Assembly (NCBI GenBank): GCA_016213785.1
Contig: JACQZQ010000109.1
Span: 62,001-126,000 of the forward strand
Origin: Acidobacteriota bacterium
Lineage (GTDB): Bacteria > Acidobacteriota > Blastocatellia > Chloracidobacteriales > JADJPF01
DNA: 64,000 nt
Direction of reading: 5' to 3'
Position 1 is the first letter of the stretch. Each line of letters begins with the position of its first letter. Below are positions 53,988 through 62,622 of this stretch, one piece after another. Made by a program: the position numbers and the translations under genes. The notes under the pieces are model-generated. The model worked only from the letters and a program-made list of their open reading frames with translations, ran no database searches and was not told where the DNA came from.

Positions 53988-54806
53988 CTAACCAACAAAA
54001 ACATGTACTCTTCCCAAGTACTTTAACCCAGCTAAACTAATTATAATAAAAGCAAAACCTACAATAGAAACTATAGCAGCACGACGACCTCGCCAGCCTG
54101 CTGCAACTCGGTAATGAATCATAAACATATAATTTACCCAAGTTAGCATAGTGGCAATTTCTATTGGATCTCCATGCCAATAAACGCCATAGCGTTGACC
54201 TGACCAAATTATACCTGTAACAATACCTACGGTTAATAAAATAAAACCTATACTCATTGAACGATAACTTATGCTATCACAAGTATCTAGCGCAGGAAAA
54301 CGCCCTAAAATAGCTTTAAATTTTTTTAATTTTAATTGTCTTTCTTGAAAAAGATAGATTAATCCTGTCACAAAAGTTACAAAAAAAGCAGTATAGGCAA
54401 AAAGTACCATAGTTACATGTATAGGAAAAAGAACAGTGCCTCCAACTCTTAAGCCTAAAGGAGAAACAGGCGGAAGCGGCAGAATTACACCTATTAAAGT
54501 TGATAAAAAAGCTAGTGGAAAAACATAGTTAGCTAAAATTTGCTCACGATTCCAAATAAAAGCAGTAAGACAATAAGCAGCTAAAGACCAACCTAAAAAA
54601 AGTAAAAGCTCTGGTTGTAAGGCTATAGGACAGCGTTCTACTTGTTTTCCTCGAATTATTAAAGCTGCGGTGTGTAGTAAAAAGCCTGATAAAGAAGAGA
54701 CCAGTGTAATAGCAAATGGCAAGCGGGGTTTTTGGAAAAATACTAACCCCGCTTGAATTAAAGCTACTAAATAAAATGCCAACGCGAGAACTAAGAGTTC
54801 TTTCAT
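53988..54806 (-). CDS. CcsA/HemX-like cytochrome c assembly protein
   Basis: A 272-residue membrane protein with eight transmembrane helices. HVTMVLFAYTAFFVTFVTGL and SGQRYGVYWHGDPIEIATML contain the conserved His and Trp-rich motif similar to the WGxxWxWD domain of CcsA/ResC heme-handling proteins. It probably carries or stabilises heme for cytochrome c assembly or regulates HemA. It lies immediately upstream of hemA and is probably co-transcribed. Confidence 0.83.
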   Translation of the reverse strand: MKELLVLALAFYLVALIQAGLVFFQKPRLPFAITLVSSLSGFLLHTAALIIRGKQVERCPIALQPELLLFLGWSLAAYCLTAFIWNREQILANYVFPLAFLSTLIGVILPLPPVSPLGLRVGGTVLFPIHVTMVLFAYTAFFVTFVTGLIYLFQERQLKLKKFKAILGRFPALDTCDSISYRSMSIGFILLTVGIVTGIIWSGQRYGVYWHGDPIEIATMLTWVNYMFMIHYRVAAGWRGRRAAIVSIVGFAFIIISLAGLKYLGRVHVFVG

Positions 54807-54858
54807 AAATCTAACTTCTTATAATTTAGAGTACTTAAGTGCTCAACGCCTTAAGGCA

Positions 54859-55029
54859 TTATAGAAGAGGGTGTAAATCATTTTCTGTATCTGTGAAGAA
54901 AATCCAGTTTATCAGGGTTTTTACTGCTTAGATAACTTATTGATATTGAATTACTTAGTAAGGGGAGCGCGATTTCTGGCTTTCGCCATCATCGCGTTTA
55001 CAGAAAATGATTTACACGCCCTTATAGAA
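54859..55029. mobile_element. 155-bp miniature inverted-repeat element with 8-bp target duplication
   Basis: Imperfect 23-bp terminal inverted repeats (left end GAGG + GTGTAAATC at 54867, right end reading GGGC + GTGTAAATC from 55021, only two mismatches) bound a 155-base element. The inner 19 bp are perfect. TTATAGAA flanks it on both sides (54859-54866 and 55022-55029), a target-site duplication of 8 bases. No open frame lies inside, so it needs a transposase from elsewhere. TIRs of the form GTGTAAATNA and 8-bp duplications are seen in IS256-family elements; that link is inferred. Confidence 0.85.
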
Positions 55030-55035
55030 AATTTT

Positions 55036-56373
55036 CTAGCTTTCATAGGCTGCGGCAATATAGCAACCCCTTGCTGTTGCTGTTAATGGTTCGCTTGCCA
55101 TACGGACTTCAGAAATTTTAATTGGAAAATCATTTTGTCTAAAAATTTTCTCAAATTTCTCTAAAAATCCTTTTGGTTTTGCAGTTCCACCAGAAAGAAC
55201 TATTGGAATCGCTCTATCTAACCTAGGTAAATTACGGCTTTCAGAAATTTCTGTTCTAAGAGTTTCTACTAGAGTTAAGATCATTTCTTCATAATAGATG
55301 TGCATAGCGCTTTCATATTTGTCTTTAGGATTACGAGAAAGATCTAGACTATCCTCTTTAATAACTCTAATTCTAGTAGCAACTTCGCTAGTTACCGCAG
55401 CAACAGCATTATCAATATAATCGCCTGCCTTAGAAATACTAAAAGAAAACACAGGTACAGACATAAAAGCAAAACACACATTACACATACCACCACCACA
55501 GCTAATACCAATACCTGTAAAATTATCTTTTTCCATTTCAGCAAAAACTACTGATAAGCCTTCATTAACACTTTTTGCTCTATAGCCAAGCGCCTCAAGG
55601 AAGTTCTTTAACATCCCTTCATGGTAAACAAGGTTTGCCTCACCACCACGAGGAGCGCCAGGGACAGAAAAACAAAGAATGTCAGGCCCTTTAGTCTTTT
55701 TAACTAAGAGTTCTATAATGGATTGAATAATTTGCCAACCATTTACTTCTGAAGGATTAAGCAAGCCGTTATACATTGGACGACGAGCCTCTACATTAAA
55801 GGAGTTAGCAAACTTTTCTGATTCATTACCAAAAATAAGAATTTCCTTACCGCTCATTTGGTAAGTAATTTTATTTTGGCGCAAAATATTTTCAGTAAAT
55901 TTTGAATAAGGTACAGTAACAAAAGCATTTAACTGTGTTTGTGTCTTAACATTATTAAACTCACCACTAGCTAATACAATCCGGCTAGTTCCAACATCCA
56001 ATCCAAAAAAGTCGGCTTCTTGCCCTGGATTATGACTTTCACTATTGGGCATATCGGTCATGTGTCCTCCAGTAGATTCATTAATATTTTCGATAATAGT
56101 TTCCTTTACCTCTTGAGTACCAGCTATTAACCTAGATAACTTTCCACTAGGGCGAAAGCGTACTAATTGGCGAGGAAGGGTGTTTTTACTTTCTTCTGCT
56201 TGATGAGACAATAACGGACTAGAAAAACTACCAAAATCATGTAGCCTAATACTATCACCTGCCACCAAAGCTTCTGTCCAAGAATTTAGCACTGAGGCTA
56301 AAGCTTTCATAACAAGAGCTTCGCTGAAACCTGTTTTTAGACTTACTTGTTGGATTAGTTCTTTTTTTGTCAT
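55036..56373 (-). CDS. HU/IHF-type DNA-binding domain fused to actin-like ATPase
   Basis: Predicted from ATG at 56373 (445 residues; the frame can start two codons earlier). Residues 1-86 match HU/IHF: TKKELIQQVSLKTGFSE, then IRLHDFGSF and a C-terminal VRFRPSGKLSRLI, but with a short, atypical DNA-arm. After a linker, residues 121-445 form an actin/HSP70-type ATPase: GLDVGTSRI (phosphate 1, Asp126), ISCGGGMCN at 290-298 (phosphate 2, where the usual Asp is Ser) and IVLSGGTAKPKG around 391 (adenosine motif). NEGLSVVFAE resembles MreB/FtsA/ParM connectors. GGAGGA stands 3 bases before a second ATG at 56061, so the actin part might also be made alone. A terminator separates it from the upstream coiled-coil gene on the same strand. 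I know of no named HU-actin family. Confidence 0.75.
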   Translation of the reverse strand: MTKKELIQQVSLKTGFSEALVMKALASVLNSWTEALVAGDSIRLHDFGSFSSPLLSHQAEESKNTLPRQLVRFRPSGKLSRLIAGTQEVKETIIENINESTGGHMTDMPNSESHNPGQEADFFGLDVGTSRIVLASGEFNNVKTQTQLNAFVTVPYSKFTENILRQNKITYQMSGKEILIFGNESEKFANSFNVEARRPMYNGLLNPSEVNGWQIIQSIIELLVKKTKGPDILCFSVPGAPRGGEANLVYHEGMLKNFLEALGYRAKSVNEGLSVVFAEMEKDNFTGIGISCGGGMCNVCFAFMSVPVFSFSISKAGDYIDNAVAAVTSEVATRIRVIKEDSLDLSRNPKDKYESAMHIYYEEMILTLVETLRTEISESRNLPRLDRAIPIVLSGGTAKPKGFLEKFEKIFRQNDFPIKISEVRMASEPLTATARGCYIAAAYES

Positions 56374-56458
56374 CACCAAAGACGATAGCTTAACATAAGT
56401 TTATTAAATTTCTCAATTGTCTATCCAAGAGCAAATTAATTAGAAAAAATCATTACAA

Positions 56459-56496
56459 TAAAAAACAGTCTAACAAAAATACTTTGGTAAGTATTT
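56459..56496 (-). terminator. Intrinsic terminator after the hendecad coiled-coil gene
   Basis: An imperfect hairpin with outer arms CAGTCTA/TAGACTG and an inner AAAATACTT/AAGTATTTT stem, loop TGGT. On the minus strand it is followed by TTTTTTATTG, a proper U-tract. It lies 44 bases past the coiled-coil gene stop and 86 bases before the HU-actin start, implying partly independent transcription. Confidence 0.75.
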
Positions 56497-56540
56497 TAGT
56501 AGACTGCCTTTTATAAACTACCTTAAGCTAAGTAAACATC

Positions 56541-58556
56541 TTAGTTTGCCGTAGCAAATTGGTTTAGGGCTAAAATAATAGATGTCTTTTCTTTTTGAGA
56601 AACTATTTCTATTTCAGATCTTAATGCTTTGAACTGGCTTAATACTTTAGTAATATCCTTTTCTCTATCACTGCTAATGACTTCAGCAATCTTACTTAAT
56701 TTACTAGCAATTTCTTCTACTTTTCTATCTTGAGAAGCGTTTGTAGCATAATTTAGTTCTTTAATTGATCGAACTAAAGAACGTTTCACTAAGTGTAAAT
56801 CTTTGTCATGTTTGCGAAACTTTTCTTCTAATTCAGTCGAAAGCTGCTGTTTTACTTGTGATTGACGCATATAATCAATCATTGCTGCCATTTGTACAAG
56901 TATGCTATCAAAATAACGTAAGACTTCTAAAGAATATTGATCTAATCGGCGTTCTTTTGCTTCTGCTGCTAGGTTTTGTTGGTTAAATTCTTTTTCTTTG
57001 GCGCGATTAGAAGAAGAAAAAACTGTTTCTGTGGCTTTATTAGCAGTAGATAGCTCATTTTCGGCGGCACGATTTTTTTCAGCTAAAGCAGCTTCAGCGG
57101 CACGATTTTTCTCTGATAATAGTTGTTCTGCACCACGATCTTTTTTAGCAAGCTCAGCTTCTGCCTTAGCATTTTCAGCTTTTAATGCAGCCTCAGCCAC
57201 ACGATTAGCCGCAGATAGCGCACTTTCACTTAAAGCATTGGCTTGTTTAAGTGCTTCTTGTTTAGCTTTATCATTAGTAGCTAGTTCTGTTTCTTCTATA
57301 GAATTATTAAATTTTAATTGCTCTTCAGCAGCACTATCTAGCTCAATTTCTGCGGCTTCAGCTTGTTTATTTGCAGAAACTAAAGCTATTTCATTATCTA
57401 AATTAATTTGGCGAAATTCTGATTCTGATTTAGTGTCACAAGCTAAGCTAGCCTCTTCTGATGCTCGATTAGAAGCAGCAAATTGAGTTTCTTCTTTCTG
57501 ATGTTGAGCTACTAGTAAAGCACGTTTTTCTGGATCTGTTTCTGCTTCTTCTAAAGCGCGATTACAGCTTGCAAGCTCTATTTCAGCAGCACGATTTTCT
57601 GCACTTTGAGCCTCTCTAGCTGCTTGATTTGTCTTTACTAAATCAGCTTCAGCCTTTCGATTAGTACTAGATAATATAGACTCTTCTAAACGATTCTCTT
57701 TAGCATGAGCGCTTTCTTTTGCTAAATTAGCGGCTTTTAATGTACTTTCATCTGCATCATGACGAGCTTTCATAGCATCTTCTTTTGCTATATCTGCCAT
57801 CATTTCTGCTTCTTCAGAAGCACGATTGCGTATGGCTAAATCGCTTTCTGCTTTAAGATTTGAACTTAAAAAGCTTTCTTCCTCTGTTTTATGTTGTGTT
57901 AATAAAGCAGCTTCTTTCTTTAAGTTTTCTGTATGCAAAAGATCTGCTGCTGCTGAGTTAGTCTTACGTAATTCTGCTTCAGCAGTACGATTTGCTGTTG
58001 CAAAAGCGGCTTCTTCTTTTTGATGTTGAGTAACTAAAGCGGCTTCGGCGGCTTGGTGTCCTAGTGCTAGATTTCTTTCTGCTTCACGGTTTCTAGCAGC
58101 ATGTTCTGCTTCTTTTTCTAAATTAGCCTTTAAGAGTCGGGTTTCATTAGCATAATTTGCACTAGCTTGAATACTAGCACTAGTAAAAACAACATTTGCT
58201 ATTGGTTGCTCGCTAACTTGTTCATTGCCATCTTCAATAACAGTATGTCCGCCTGTGTCAGAAATAAGCTGATTTTTCACTAAATCAGCAAAAATAGTAT
58301 GCTCTCCTGTACTAGTATTTGGAGAAATAGATTTTTTTAGGGTTTCTTCGGGGCTAATTTCTTTAGATTCAACTTCTTTAGATTCAACTTCTTTGGAAGG
58401 GCTTTCAGAAATATTTTTAGATAAGGCTTCTTCAATATTTTCTCTTTGGAATCTTCGCTTATGACTTAAGCGTGTTTCTGTTAAACTTTGAGTAATATCA
58501 ATATTATCTAAGTTATGTAAGTTAAAGTGAAAACCTTTATCTTTAATCTCTGACAT
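56541..58556 (-). CDS. Long hendecad-repeat coiled-coil protein
   Basis: A 671-residue protein without signal peptide or membrane helix. GGGAGG stands 9 bases before the ATG. Residues 1-130 are charged and probably disordered, with KEVESKEVESKE from a 15-base repeat. Residues 130-535 are about 37 repeats of eleven residues with an xxNRAAExxLx consensus (for example EKNRAAEAALA, EKNRAAENELS, TANKATETVFS). Eleven-residue periodicity makes an almost straight or slightly right-handed coiled coil, different from ordinary heptad coils. The last 135 residues (RLDQYSLEVLRYFDSILVQM ...) form another helical domain. The gene lies upstream of the HU-actin gene on the same strand. A structural filament or spacer is likely, but no family was recognised. 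Confidence 0.7.
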   Translation of the reverse strand: MSEIKDKGFHFNLHNLDNIDITQSLTETRLSHKRRFQRENIEEALSKNISESPSKEVESKEVESKEISPEETLKKSISPNTSTGEHTIFADLVKNQLISDTGGHTVIEDGNEQVSEQPIANVVFTSASIQASANYANETRLLKANLEKEAEHAARNREAERNLALGHQAAEAALVTQHQKEEAAFATANRTAEAELRKTNSAAADLLHTENLKKEAALLTQHKTEEESFLSSNLKAESDLAIRNRASEEAEMMADIAKEDAMKARHDADESTLKAANLAKESAHAKENRLEESILSSTNRKAEADLVKTNQAAREAQSAENRAAEIELASCNRALEEAETDPEKRALLVAQHQKEETQFAASNRASEEASLACDTKSESEFRQINLDNEIALVSANKQAEAAEIELDSAAEEQLKFNNSIEETELATNDKAKQEALKQANALSESALSAANRVAEAALKAENAKAEAELAKKDRGAEQLLSEKNRAAEAALAEKNRAAENELSTANKATETVFSSSNRAKEKEFNQQNLAAEAKERRLDQYSLEVLRYFDSILVQMAAMIDYMRQSQVKQQLSTELEEKFRKHDKDLHLVKRSLVRSIKELNYATNASQDRKVEEIASKLSKIAEVISSDREKDITKVLSQFKALRSEIEIVSQKEKTSIILALNQFATAN
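58359..58388 (-). repeat. Two 15-bp tandem repeats in the coiled-coil gene
   Basis: TTCTTTAGATTCAAC is present twice in a row (plus-strand wording), encoding Glu-Val-Glu-Ser-Lys twice in the N-terminal tail. Unit length is a multiple of three. Confidence 0.85.
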
Positions 58557-59945: not shown

Positions 59946-61142
59946 ATGAAACAACCTCTTCTACTCAAAACTTTACTAATCATTTTGTTAGTGGCTATTT
60001 TTTCTATTTCTTGTGAGAAAAAATCTAGCCAGCCAGAAACCACCCAAAAATCTACCTCTGATAAAATCAAAATAGGTGTCTACTATCCATTAACAGGCGA
60101 TATAGCAACTTTTGGTCAATTTGGCAAAAAGGGTGTAGAAATGGCTGTAGCCGAAGTTAATGCCCAAGGTGGTCTACTTGGTCGTCAAATAGAAGCAATT
60201 TATGAAGATACTCGTGGACAACAACAGGATTCAACTATTGCAGTGCAAAAGCTAATTGATAAAGATAAAGTGGTTGCCGTACTTGGTGAATCTGCATCAA
60301 CTAATTCTTTAGCAGGTGGCGCGGTTTGTCAGGAAAAGAAAATCCCTATGATTACACCATCCTCAACAAACCCAACAGTAACACAGATAGGAGATTATAT
60401 TTTCCGTATTTGTTTTCTAGATGATTTTCAAGGTGAAGTTATGGCTAGATTTGCTGTTAATACTCTAAAAGCTAAAAGAGTTGCAGTATTATATGATAAT
60501 GGTAGTGACTATAGTATTGGATTAGATGAATTTTTTAGCGCTACACTTAAGAAATTAGGTGGTGAAATTGTCGCTAAAGAAGCTTACCAAAAAGCAGACG
60601 TTGATTTTAGCGCTCAATTGACTAAGATTAAAGGCTCAAAACCTGATGCTATCTATGTTCCAGGCTACTATACTCAAGTTGGTCAAATCGCTCAGCAGAC
60701 TCGCAAACTTGGTATGACAATACCTATTCTTGGTGCTGATGGTTGGGATTCGCCATCACTAATTGAAATAGGTAAAGAAGCCCTTAATGGTTGCTATTTT
60801 TCTAATCATTATAATGTTGAAGATCCTGATCCAAGAGTAAGCAAATTTGTAGGAGAGTTTAAGACAAAATATAACTCAACTCCTGATACCACAGCAGGTC
60901 TAGCTTATGATGCGACTTATATTTTATTTGCAGCAATAAAAAAAGCTAATTCTACTGAAAGTAAAGCTATTCGCGATGCTATTAGTGAGACTAAAAATTA
61001 CCCTGGAATAACAGGAGACATTAGCATTAGCAAAGAGCGCAATGCTATAAAATCAGCAGTAATTGTAGGGATTGAAAAGGGCAGATATGTTGTTAAAGAA
61101 AAAATGTCTCCTATTGATCAAAACGTTGCAGAAAATAAATAA
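59946..61142 (+). CDS. livJ: Branched-chain amino-acid binding lipoprotein (first copy)
   Basis: A 398-residue type I periplasmic binding protein. The signal ends at Cys23 (FSISC), lipidated. IKIGVYYPLTGDIATFGQFG and GGLLGRQIEAIYEDTRG start the LivJ/LivK-type fold, followed by VLGESASTNSLAGGAVC and PGYYTQVGQIAQQTRKLG. It binds leucine, isoleucine, valine or a related amino acid or amide for the LivHMGF-type importer. A second, clearly related copy follows after 217 bases. Confidence 0.85.
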   Translation: MKQPLLLKTLLIILLVAIFSISCEKKSSQPETTQKSTSDKIKIGVYYPLTGDIATFGQFGKKGVEMAVAEVNAQGGLLGRQIEAIYEDTRGQQQDSTIAVQKLIDKDKVVAVLGESASTNSLAGGAVCQEKKIPMITPSSTNPTVTQIGDYIFRICFLDDFQGEVMARFAVNTLKAKRVAVLYDNGSDYSIGLDEFFSATLKKLGGEIVAKEAYQKADVDFSAQLTKIKGSKPDAIYVPGYYTQVGQIAQQTRKLGMTIPILGADGWDSPSLIEIGKEALNGCYFSNHYNVEDPDPRVSKFVGEFKTKYNSTPDTTAGLAYDATYILFAAIKKANSTESKAIRDAISETKNYPGITGDISISKERNAIKSAVIVGIEKGRYVVKEKMSPIDQNVAENK

Positions 61143-61359
61143 ATTTTAAGCCTTATAGACAAGGTTTTATAGGCTTGGATGTGCCTGTTTGCCTTGACAG
61201 AGTAGAGAATATCCTATATCAATCTTTGGTTACGCTACCCCAAAAACATCTTTTTAATTGTCTCAATAAACATAAGCAAGTAGGTTTCCTACTTTGCAAT
61301 AATATAAATTTTCTATGGAGGCGGCATTCCTGCTAAGTGTAAGTGCCGAAGAAATTTTA

Positions 61360-62622
61360 ATGAAATCAAAGCATTTTTTCAAAACCCTTTTATCCTCAGT
61401 CTTTATCTTAATAATGTTTGCAGCCTTTATTGCTTGTGAAAAAAAGCAAGACTCTACCAATACAGGCAATAACAACACAACACCTAAGAGTGGTGATACT
61501 ATAAAAATAGGTGAATATGGCTCACTGACTGGGGAAAAGGCTACTTTTGGTCAATCTACCAAAAAAGGTATTGAGCTTGCTCAAGAAGAAATCAACAAAG
61601 CTGGTGGTTTATTAGGAAAACAAGTAGAAATTATTGTAGAAGATACTCGTGGACTTCCTCAAGAATCTACTACTGTAGTACAAAAGCTAATAGATAAAGA
61701 TAAAGTAATTGCAGTTTTAGGTGAAGTGGCTTCGACTAACTCTTTAGCTGGTGGTGCAGTATGCCAAGAAAAACAAGTACCAATGATTACACCATCTTCT
61801 ACTAATGCAGATGTAACCAAAATAGGCGATCAAATTTTCCGTGTTTGCTTTGTAGATGATTTTCAAGGCGAAGTAATGGCTAAATTTGCAGCTAATACAC
61901 TTAAGGTTAAAAAGATTGCAATTCTTCGCGATAATGGTAGCGACTATAGCAAAGGCTTATCTAATTTCTTTGAACAAACTTTTAAGAAATTAGGCGGTGA
62001 AATCATTGCTATTGAATCCTTCCAAGATAAAGATTCTGACTTTAGCGCTCAATTAACCAAACTTAAAGGCTTAAAGCCCGAAGCTCTTTATGTTCCAGGC
62101 TACTATACTCAAGCAGGTCAAATTGCTCAACAAGCCCGCAAAAATGGAATTACTGTCCCAATAATGGGTGGAGATGGTTGGGACTCTCAAACGCTTTTTG
62201 ATATTGGTAAAGACGCTCTTAATGGCTGCTATATTTCTAACCATTACACTATTGAAGACCCAGATCCAGATGTACAAAAATTTATTACCAGTTTCAAAGC
62301 AAAATTTGGTGAAACTCCTGATGCTTTAGCCGCTCTTGCTTATGATGCTGCTAAAATTATGTTTGATTCTATTAAACGTGCTGGTTCTACAGATAAAAAA
62401 GCTATACGTGATGCTATTGCTCAAACTAAAGATTTTAAGGGTGTTACAGGTGTAATTACTATTGGAGCTAACCGTGATGCAGTAAAATCTGCTGTTATCT
62501 TAGAAATCCAAGACGGTAAATATAAATTTAAAGAAAGCGTTAAACCTGATAATGCTCCAGTAGCAAGTACTGAAACAGCACCAGCAACTACTCCAGAAAT
62601 AAAAGCGGTAGCAATCAAGTAA
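61360..62622 (+). CDS. livJ: Branched-chain amino-acid binding lipoprotein (second copy)
   Basis: The frame is open from ATG at 61315, but ATG 61360 starts a proper lipoprotein signal with lipobox FIAC and Cys26; the result is 420 residues. The body repeats the wording of the upstream copy (IKIGEYGSLTGEKATFGQS, GGLLGKQVEIIVEDTRGLPQ, YVPGYYTQAGQIAQQARKNG), with a Thr/Ala/Pro-rich C-terminal tail. The two are likely ancient tandem duplicates with different ligand range. livH follows by 40 bases. Confidence 0.85.
   Translation: MKSKHFFKTLLSSVFILIMFAAFIACEKKQDSTNTGNNNTTPKSGDTIKIGEYGSLTGEKATFGQSTKKGIELAQEEINKAGGLLGKQVEIIVEDTRGLPQESTTVVQKLIDKDKVIAVLGEVASTNSLAGGAVCQEKQVPMITPSSTNADVTKIGDQIFRVCFVDDFQGEVMAKFAANTLKVKKIAILRDNGSDYSKGLSNFFEQTFKKLGGEIIAIESFQDKDSDFSAQLTKLKGLKPEALYVPGYYTQAGQIAQQARKNGITVPIMGGDGWDSQTLFDIGKDALNGCYISNHYTIEDPDPDVQKFITSFKAKFGETPDALAALAYDAAKIMFDSIKRAGSTDKKAIRDAIAQTKDFKGVTGVITIGANRDAVKSAVILEIQDGKYKFKESVKPDNAPVASTETAPATTPEIKAVAIK

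Follow-up and report, generated by a model that had tools for sequence, protein, structure and literature searches.

We found, in the 64,000-nucleotide stretch of DNA that was analysed (the window), a single minus-strand reading frame joining an HU-like domain to an actin ATPase of the volactin family. Sequence comparisons establish that the two domains are fused, that three families have kept the fusion, that the HU half shows coding-type selection, that a ribosome-binding site and start codon inside the gene are conserved, and that the actin co-occurs exactly with a membrane amidase.

The frame runs from an ATG at 56373 to a stop at 55036 (445 aa); a possible TTG start lies upstream at 56379, the open frame spanning 55036..56379, and on the plus strand 55036-56373 is interrupted by many stops. 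Residues 1-86 (56116..56373) form the HU/IHF-like domain, residues 87-117 (56023..56115) a variable linker predicted to be disordered, and residues 118-445 (55039..56022) the actin ATPase, all of these and the motifs below lying on the minus strand. Three Pfam families match over their cut-offs: PF00216 (Bac_DNA_binding) at residues 1-52 (E 5.7e-11, the HU half scoring 47.8 bits against a cut-off of 22.4), HU-HIG at residues 2-86 (E 6.3e-08), and Volactin (PF25216) at residues 123-441 (E 9.2e-76, 255.8 bits against a cut-off of 35, model positions 3-321 of 321). AlphaFold2 modelling of the full chain gives an HU core with pLDDT of about 85-95, an arm of low confidence, a disordered linker (residues 81-117) and an actin mostly above 90. 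The earlier note had placed the feature at 55036-56373 and seen HU and actin folds in one frame; coordinates and folds are both confirmed, and the strand, which it omitted, is added here. Two of the checks it proposed, a profile search with the halves (HU at residues 1-86, actin at 123-441) and structure prediction of the full chain, bear it out.

Volactin was found over cut-off in 34 of the 162 genomes of the class. The in-frame HU fusion is present in 12/12 genomes of three Blastocatellia families (f1, f3 and f6), answering the earlier suggestion to look for it in related genomes; because the same fusion recurs in 12 genomes, it is real and no assembly error. No HU fusion was found in the examined relatives from families f7, f4 or beyond (the contig scan listed 80 of 161 relatives, and fusions elsewhere are possible). 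Separate HU and actin genes in relatives had been named as evidence against a true fusion; the sister families have the actin, and no HU gene was found beside it in the unfused relatives examined from f7, f4 or beyond. The actin tree is compatible with one fusion origin, with modest support (58% of bootstrap trees). The literature searched (open-access papers only) yielded no account of an HU-actin fusion, so the remark that no characterised family joins these domains stands for the fusion, but not for the ATPase itself, which belongs to the named family Volactin/PF25216.

By every feature that could be tested from the sequence or the structure model, the protein belongs to the volactin family. 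Its actin half has MamK, BeeR and MreB as nearest structures (MamK 5ljv: Z 28.7, rmsd 3.0, 295 aligned), and it is the only volactin gene of a genome that also has MreB genes of its own. The three nucleotide-binding motifs reported earlier are all present: phosphate-1, GLDVGTS (residues 124-130, 55984..56004); phosphate-2, GIGISCGGGMCNV (55477..55515, with GIGISCGGGMCN as residues 287-298); and adenosine, SGGTAKPKG (55168..55194, SGGT being residues 394-397). Ser 291 replaces the phosphate-2 aspartate, which had been taken as a change in this protein that hints at altered ATP turnover. The serine occurs in 54/54 bacterial and viral family sequences, and it is found as well in a haloarchaeal member (Haloarcula plasmid) and in a member from a 485-kb huge phage. 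The same D to S change is present in Mad28, and in the presence of ATP-gamma-S that protein polymerises in vitro (PMC10653835). Being invariant in the family and published for a polymerising protein, the serine is no sign of peculiarity here and reads as a family rule, not a lesion. Volactin itself assembles into dynamic filaments and affects the shape of the cell (PMC10869688).

Volactin-family genes were met in other settings as well. They occur in huge-phage records and IMG/VR contigs (H1, H2 and L139-L159), and one frame (L013:778-2466) combines a response-regulator receiver domain with a volactin. Others lie inside gas-vesicle gene clusters of Patescibacteria, Saganbacteria, Elusimicrobia and Omnitrophota (L127, L133, L134, L136 and L137), L133 being assigned by Pfam and the others by similarity to L133; these clusters contain GvpA, GvpF/L, GvpG and a CDC48-type AAA protein. 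No description of an actin in a gas-vesicle cluster was found in the open-access papers searched. A plasmid or phage origin of the window gene was rejected: its phage and plasmid matches are distant, actin-only volactins of 30-37% identity, and the HU half has no plasmid match. A defence system was rejected also, there being no PADLOC match.

The N-terminal half is HU-like as judged from its sequence, without the tip of the DNA-bending arm. The PF00216 cut-off is passed by 8/8 fused HU halves tested, and Foldseek with the HU half alone retrieves HU and IHF structures. Modelled alone it is of low confidence (mean pLDDT 61.5, with six sequences), with confident helices and HU as its Foldseek match. 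It resembles the HU/IHF proteins of its own genome in passing the PF00216 cut-off and matching the HU fold, but differs in being joined to an actin and in its shortened beta-arm: the canonical RNP motif of the arm tip is absent in all 12 of the 12 fusions, whereas C82 and C57 of the same genome have RNP and C70 a recognisable RN. Summed over its first 90 residues, the window protein has a net charge of +4 and L047 one of 0; in 9/12 fusions the HU half is strongly basic (net +7 to +16), and truncated or uncharged halves also occur (L008, L047). The substitution pattern indicates that the HU half is under coding-type selection. Substitutions by codon position number 43/33/83 in three close pairs (a third-position excess, p 2e-6), alignment gaps are all multiples of three, and the frame is stop-free, with several stops in the other forward frames. 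Its dN/dS is 0.35 and 0.14 in two close pairs, versus about 0.04-0.06 for the actin; the HU half evolves much faster.

Two further HU-containing proteins were noticed in the same genome. One is a further HU fusion (L058:1417-2661, C84), with TPR repeats and an additional C-terminal part, its gene sitting between those of a PP2C-like phosphatase and a protein kinase; the other is a stand-alone HU-like protein of 86 aa (L057:1489-1758, C132), likewise without the arm motif.

Between the two halves lies GGAGG-N4-ATG (56059-56070), composed of a Shine-Dalgarno GGAGG (56066..56070) and an in-frame ATG at codon 105 (56059..56061), the proposed start of an HU-free actin. In 12/12 fusions, despite a widely varying linker, the domain boundary retains an in-frame ATG preceded by GGAGG at 4 or 10 nt, and most unfused actins start with the same arrangement. 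At the internal start the 16S tail is predicted to pair with -9.4 kcal/mol on average, versus -2.7 at the HU start; most HU starts, including that of the window gene, have no Shine-Dalgarno, and those of L044 and L008 pair at about -7. The first Gly codon of the internal site is GGA in 12/12 (product of usages 1e-8, kinship ignored), and in 9/12 genes the internal ATG alone, of all in-frame starts, has GGAGG at this spacing. Chance can produce the pattern, two matches being found in a segment of this size versus 0.7 expected, and the evidence lies in the conservation of the internal start at the domain boundary, not in the mere presence of the pattern. With this start between the halves, one gene probably yields two products, an HU-actin of 445 aa and a free actin of 341 aa. 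The earlier note, right as to the one frame, missed the internal start, which suggests two products in place of the single built-in adaptor that it considered.

In 63 of 92 loci (some genomes being represented in both of two collections) the actin has a recurrent neighbour, always on the strand of the actin. The protein that it encodes has a cytoplasmic-type N-terminus, a single hydrophobic segment and, at the C-terminus, an Amidase_2 domain (PF01510). The zinc ligands H/H/D are kept in 67-68 of 68 and a strong hydrophobic segment is found in 58 of 68, features that mark it as a single-pass membrane N-acetylmuramoyl-L-alanine amidase. At E <= 1e-20 the amidase is present in exactly the 34 class genomes with volactin and in 0 of the 128 others (Fisher p 9e-36, inflated by relatedness). 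The two genes lie within 1.5 kb in 31 of the 34 and on different contigs in the window genome, G302 and G267. In a sample of the phylum, 13/14 amidase genomes have volactin over cut-off, and 4/17 volactin genomes, from divergent branches, have no amidase. A SPOR-domain, zinc-ribbon-like protein is often encoded upstream. Amidases cut septal peptidoglycan and SPOR domains bind it, so that a role in wall cleavage at division would be the simplest reading, and the exact co-occurrence points to a cell-wall cytoskeleton rather than a ParM-like machine. For the combination of actin, amidase and SPOR the open-access literature search turned up nothing but reviews and studies that were unrelated, as judged from titles and abstracts.

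In the window the actin is neighboured by genes for a 671-aa repeat protein and a transglycosylase and by CcsA-like and HemA-like genes (the last two named from reading their translations). The 671-aa protein (56541-58556, minus strand) has degenerate coiled-coil-like repeats and no Pfam family over cut-off; this upstream gene was rejected as a partner, because no copy was found at the corresponding locus of G302 (L160), a relative from the same genus. At 59946-61142 and 61315-62622 lie two similar adjacent genes whose translations resemble branched-chain amino acid ABC substrate-binding proteins.

We propose, tentatively and with slightly less than even confidence, that the volactin-type actin works with the membrane amidase, that HU was added in this clade, and that an HU-tagged minority of subunits ties the filaments to the nucleoid. 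From the two translation starts we would expect an HU-actin initiated weakly and a free actin initiated strongly, and the two would co-polymerise; we infer filament formation from volactin and Mad28. The filaments would organise the amidase, engaging its cytoplasmic N-terminal part, and would place peptidoglycan cleavage, probably at division because of the SPOR protein often encoded beside. Sparse HU tags may hold the filament to the nucleoid, or sense the nucleoid, and wall cutting would therefore be coordinated with chromosome position. The more specific version, in which the nested starts make a two-isoform actin and one filament joins chromosome to amidase, timing or placing wall splitting by nucleoid position, we regard as rather unlikely. 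Counting against the model are the location of the amidase on a different contig in three genomes, that of the window among them, the loss of the RNP tip, the low HU charge in some fusions, the fast HU evolution, and the divergent branches without amidase. Its least certain step is DNA binding by the HU domain, which may instead only dimerise.

HU is a dimer, and the main rival takes up that step: HU dimers would cross-link actin filaments, gather them into bundles or fix their register, with no part for DNA. We consider it unlikely, given how many of the fused halves are strongly basic, though the well-predicted helical core, the universal loss of the arm tip and the truncated or uncharged halves of L008 and L047 all fit it. 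The built-in adaptor of the earlier note leads instead to a segregation machine in which filaments of HU-actin would move chromosomes or plasmids by pushing or pulling, in the manner of ParM, HU replacing ParR and parC. It shares with ParM/ParR/parC an actin-like ATPase proposed to connect to DNA, and may draw on the HU fold, the resemblance of the actin to MamK and MreB, and the effect on DNA partitioning of salactin, another haloarchaeal actin (PMC10746226). The comparison with ParM fares poorly all the same. No ParR-like adaptor gene is seen among the window neighbours, the only repeats in 54600-56560 are two-copy ones of chance type, a parC-like centromere array was not found next to the gene either, and a ParM-type partition locus was rejected on both counts. 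The setting is chromosomal, the match in occurrence with a peptidoglycan amidase, the candidate partner, is exact for fused and unfused actins, and the conserved internal start makes an untagged actin likely, all of which renders the segregation machine improbable.

Two further rivals concern the nested start. The HU segment could mainly be a translated leader that sets the amount of actin by translational coupling, the fusion protein being incidental, as the perfect Shine-Dalgarno at the actin start, its absence at most HU starts and the fast HU evolution might suggest; but such a leader need not stay in frame and stop-free with HU-plus-linker lengths of 85 to 130 aa, nor would it have to retain an HU fold that passes the Pfam cut-off, and we find this quite improbable. 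Conversely, the fusion could be the single product and GGAGG-ATG an unused relic of the ancestral gene. Shared ancestry by itself could keep the site for a time, and the pattern does arise by chance, but it has been kept across three families while the surrounding linker diverged almost beyond alignment, and this reading is very improbable.

The preferred model of a wall-associated, partly HU-tagged actin can be set beside known systems. The window protein shares the full PF25216 match with volactin (VolA, HVO_2015, of Haloferax volcanii), and the phosphate-2 serine with a haloarchaeal member of the family; that member has no HU domain, whereas the window gene has the fused HU and the nested start. 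To our knowledge archaea have no peptidoglycan of the bacterial kind, so haloarchaeal volactin would have no such amidase partner. Mad28, the magnetosome-associated actin-like protein that has the same serine and forms filaments (PMC10653835), differs in its magnetosome gene context and in having no HU; a volactin-family gene is present in Ca. Magnetominusculus HCH-1 (L135) and is not equated here with the published mad28. The wall-guiding pairs FtsA-FtsN and MreB-RodZ likewise consist of an actin-fold protein and a membrane peptidoglycan factor, with a SPOR protein nearby here as well, but belong to a separate family, and the window genome has its own MreB genes. The earlier note's interpretation is, as a whole, partly supported.

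In bacteria, actins are usually connected to DNA or to wall enzymes by linkers that are separate proteins. In the present case the actin itself contains a nucleoid-type domain, probably in part of the subunits only, and the gene content hints at a skeleton linking chromosome and wall. If confirmed, this would be a direct physical link between the chromosome and wall cleavage, and the bacterial volactin-family actins would gain a testable partner and function, the amidase being tied to them by gene content.
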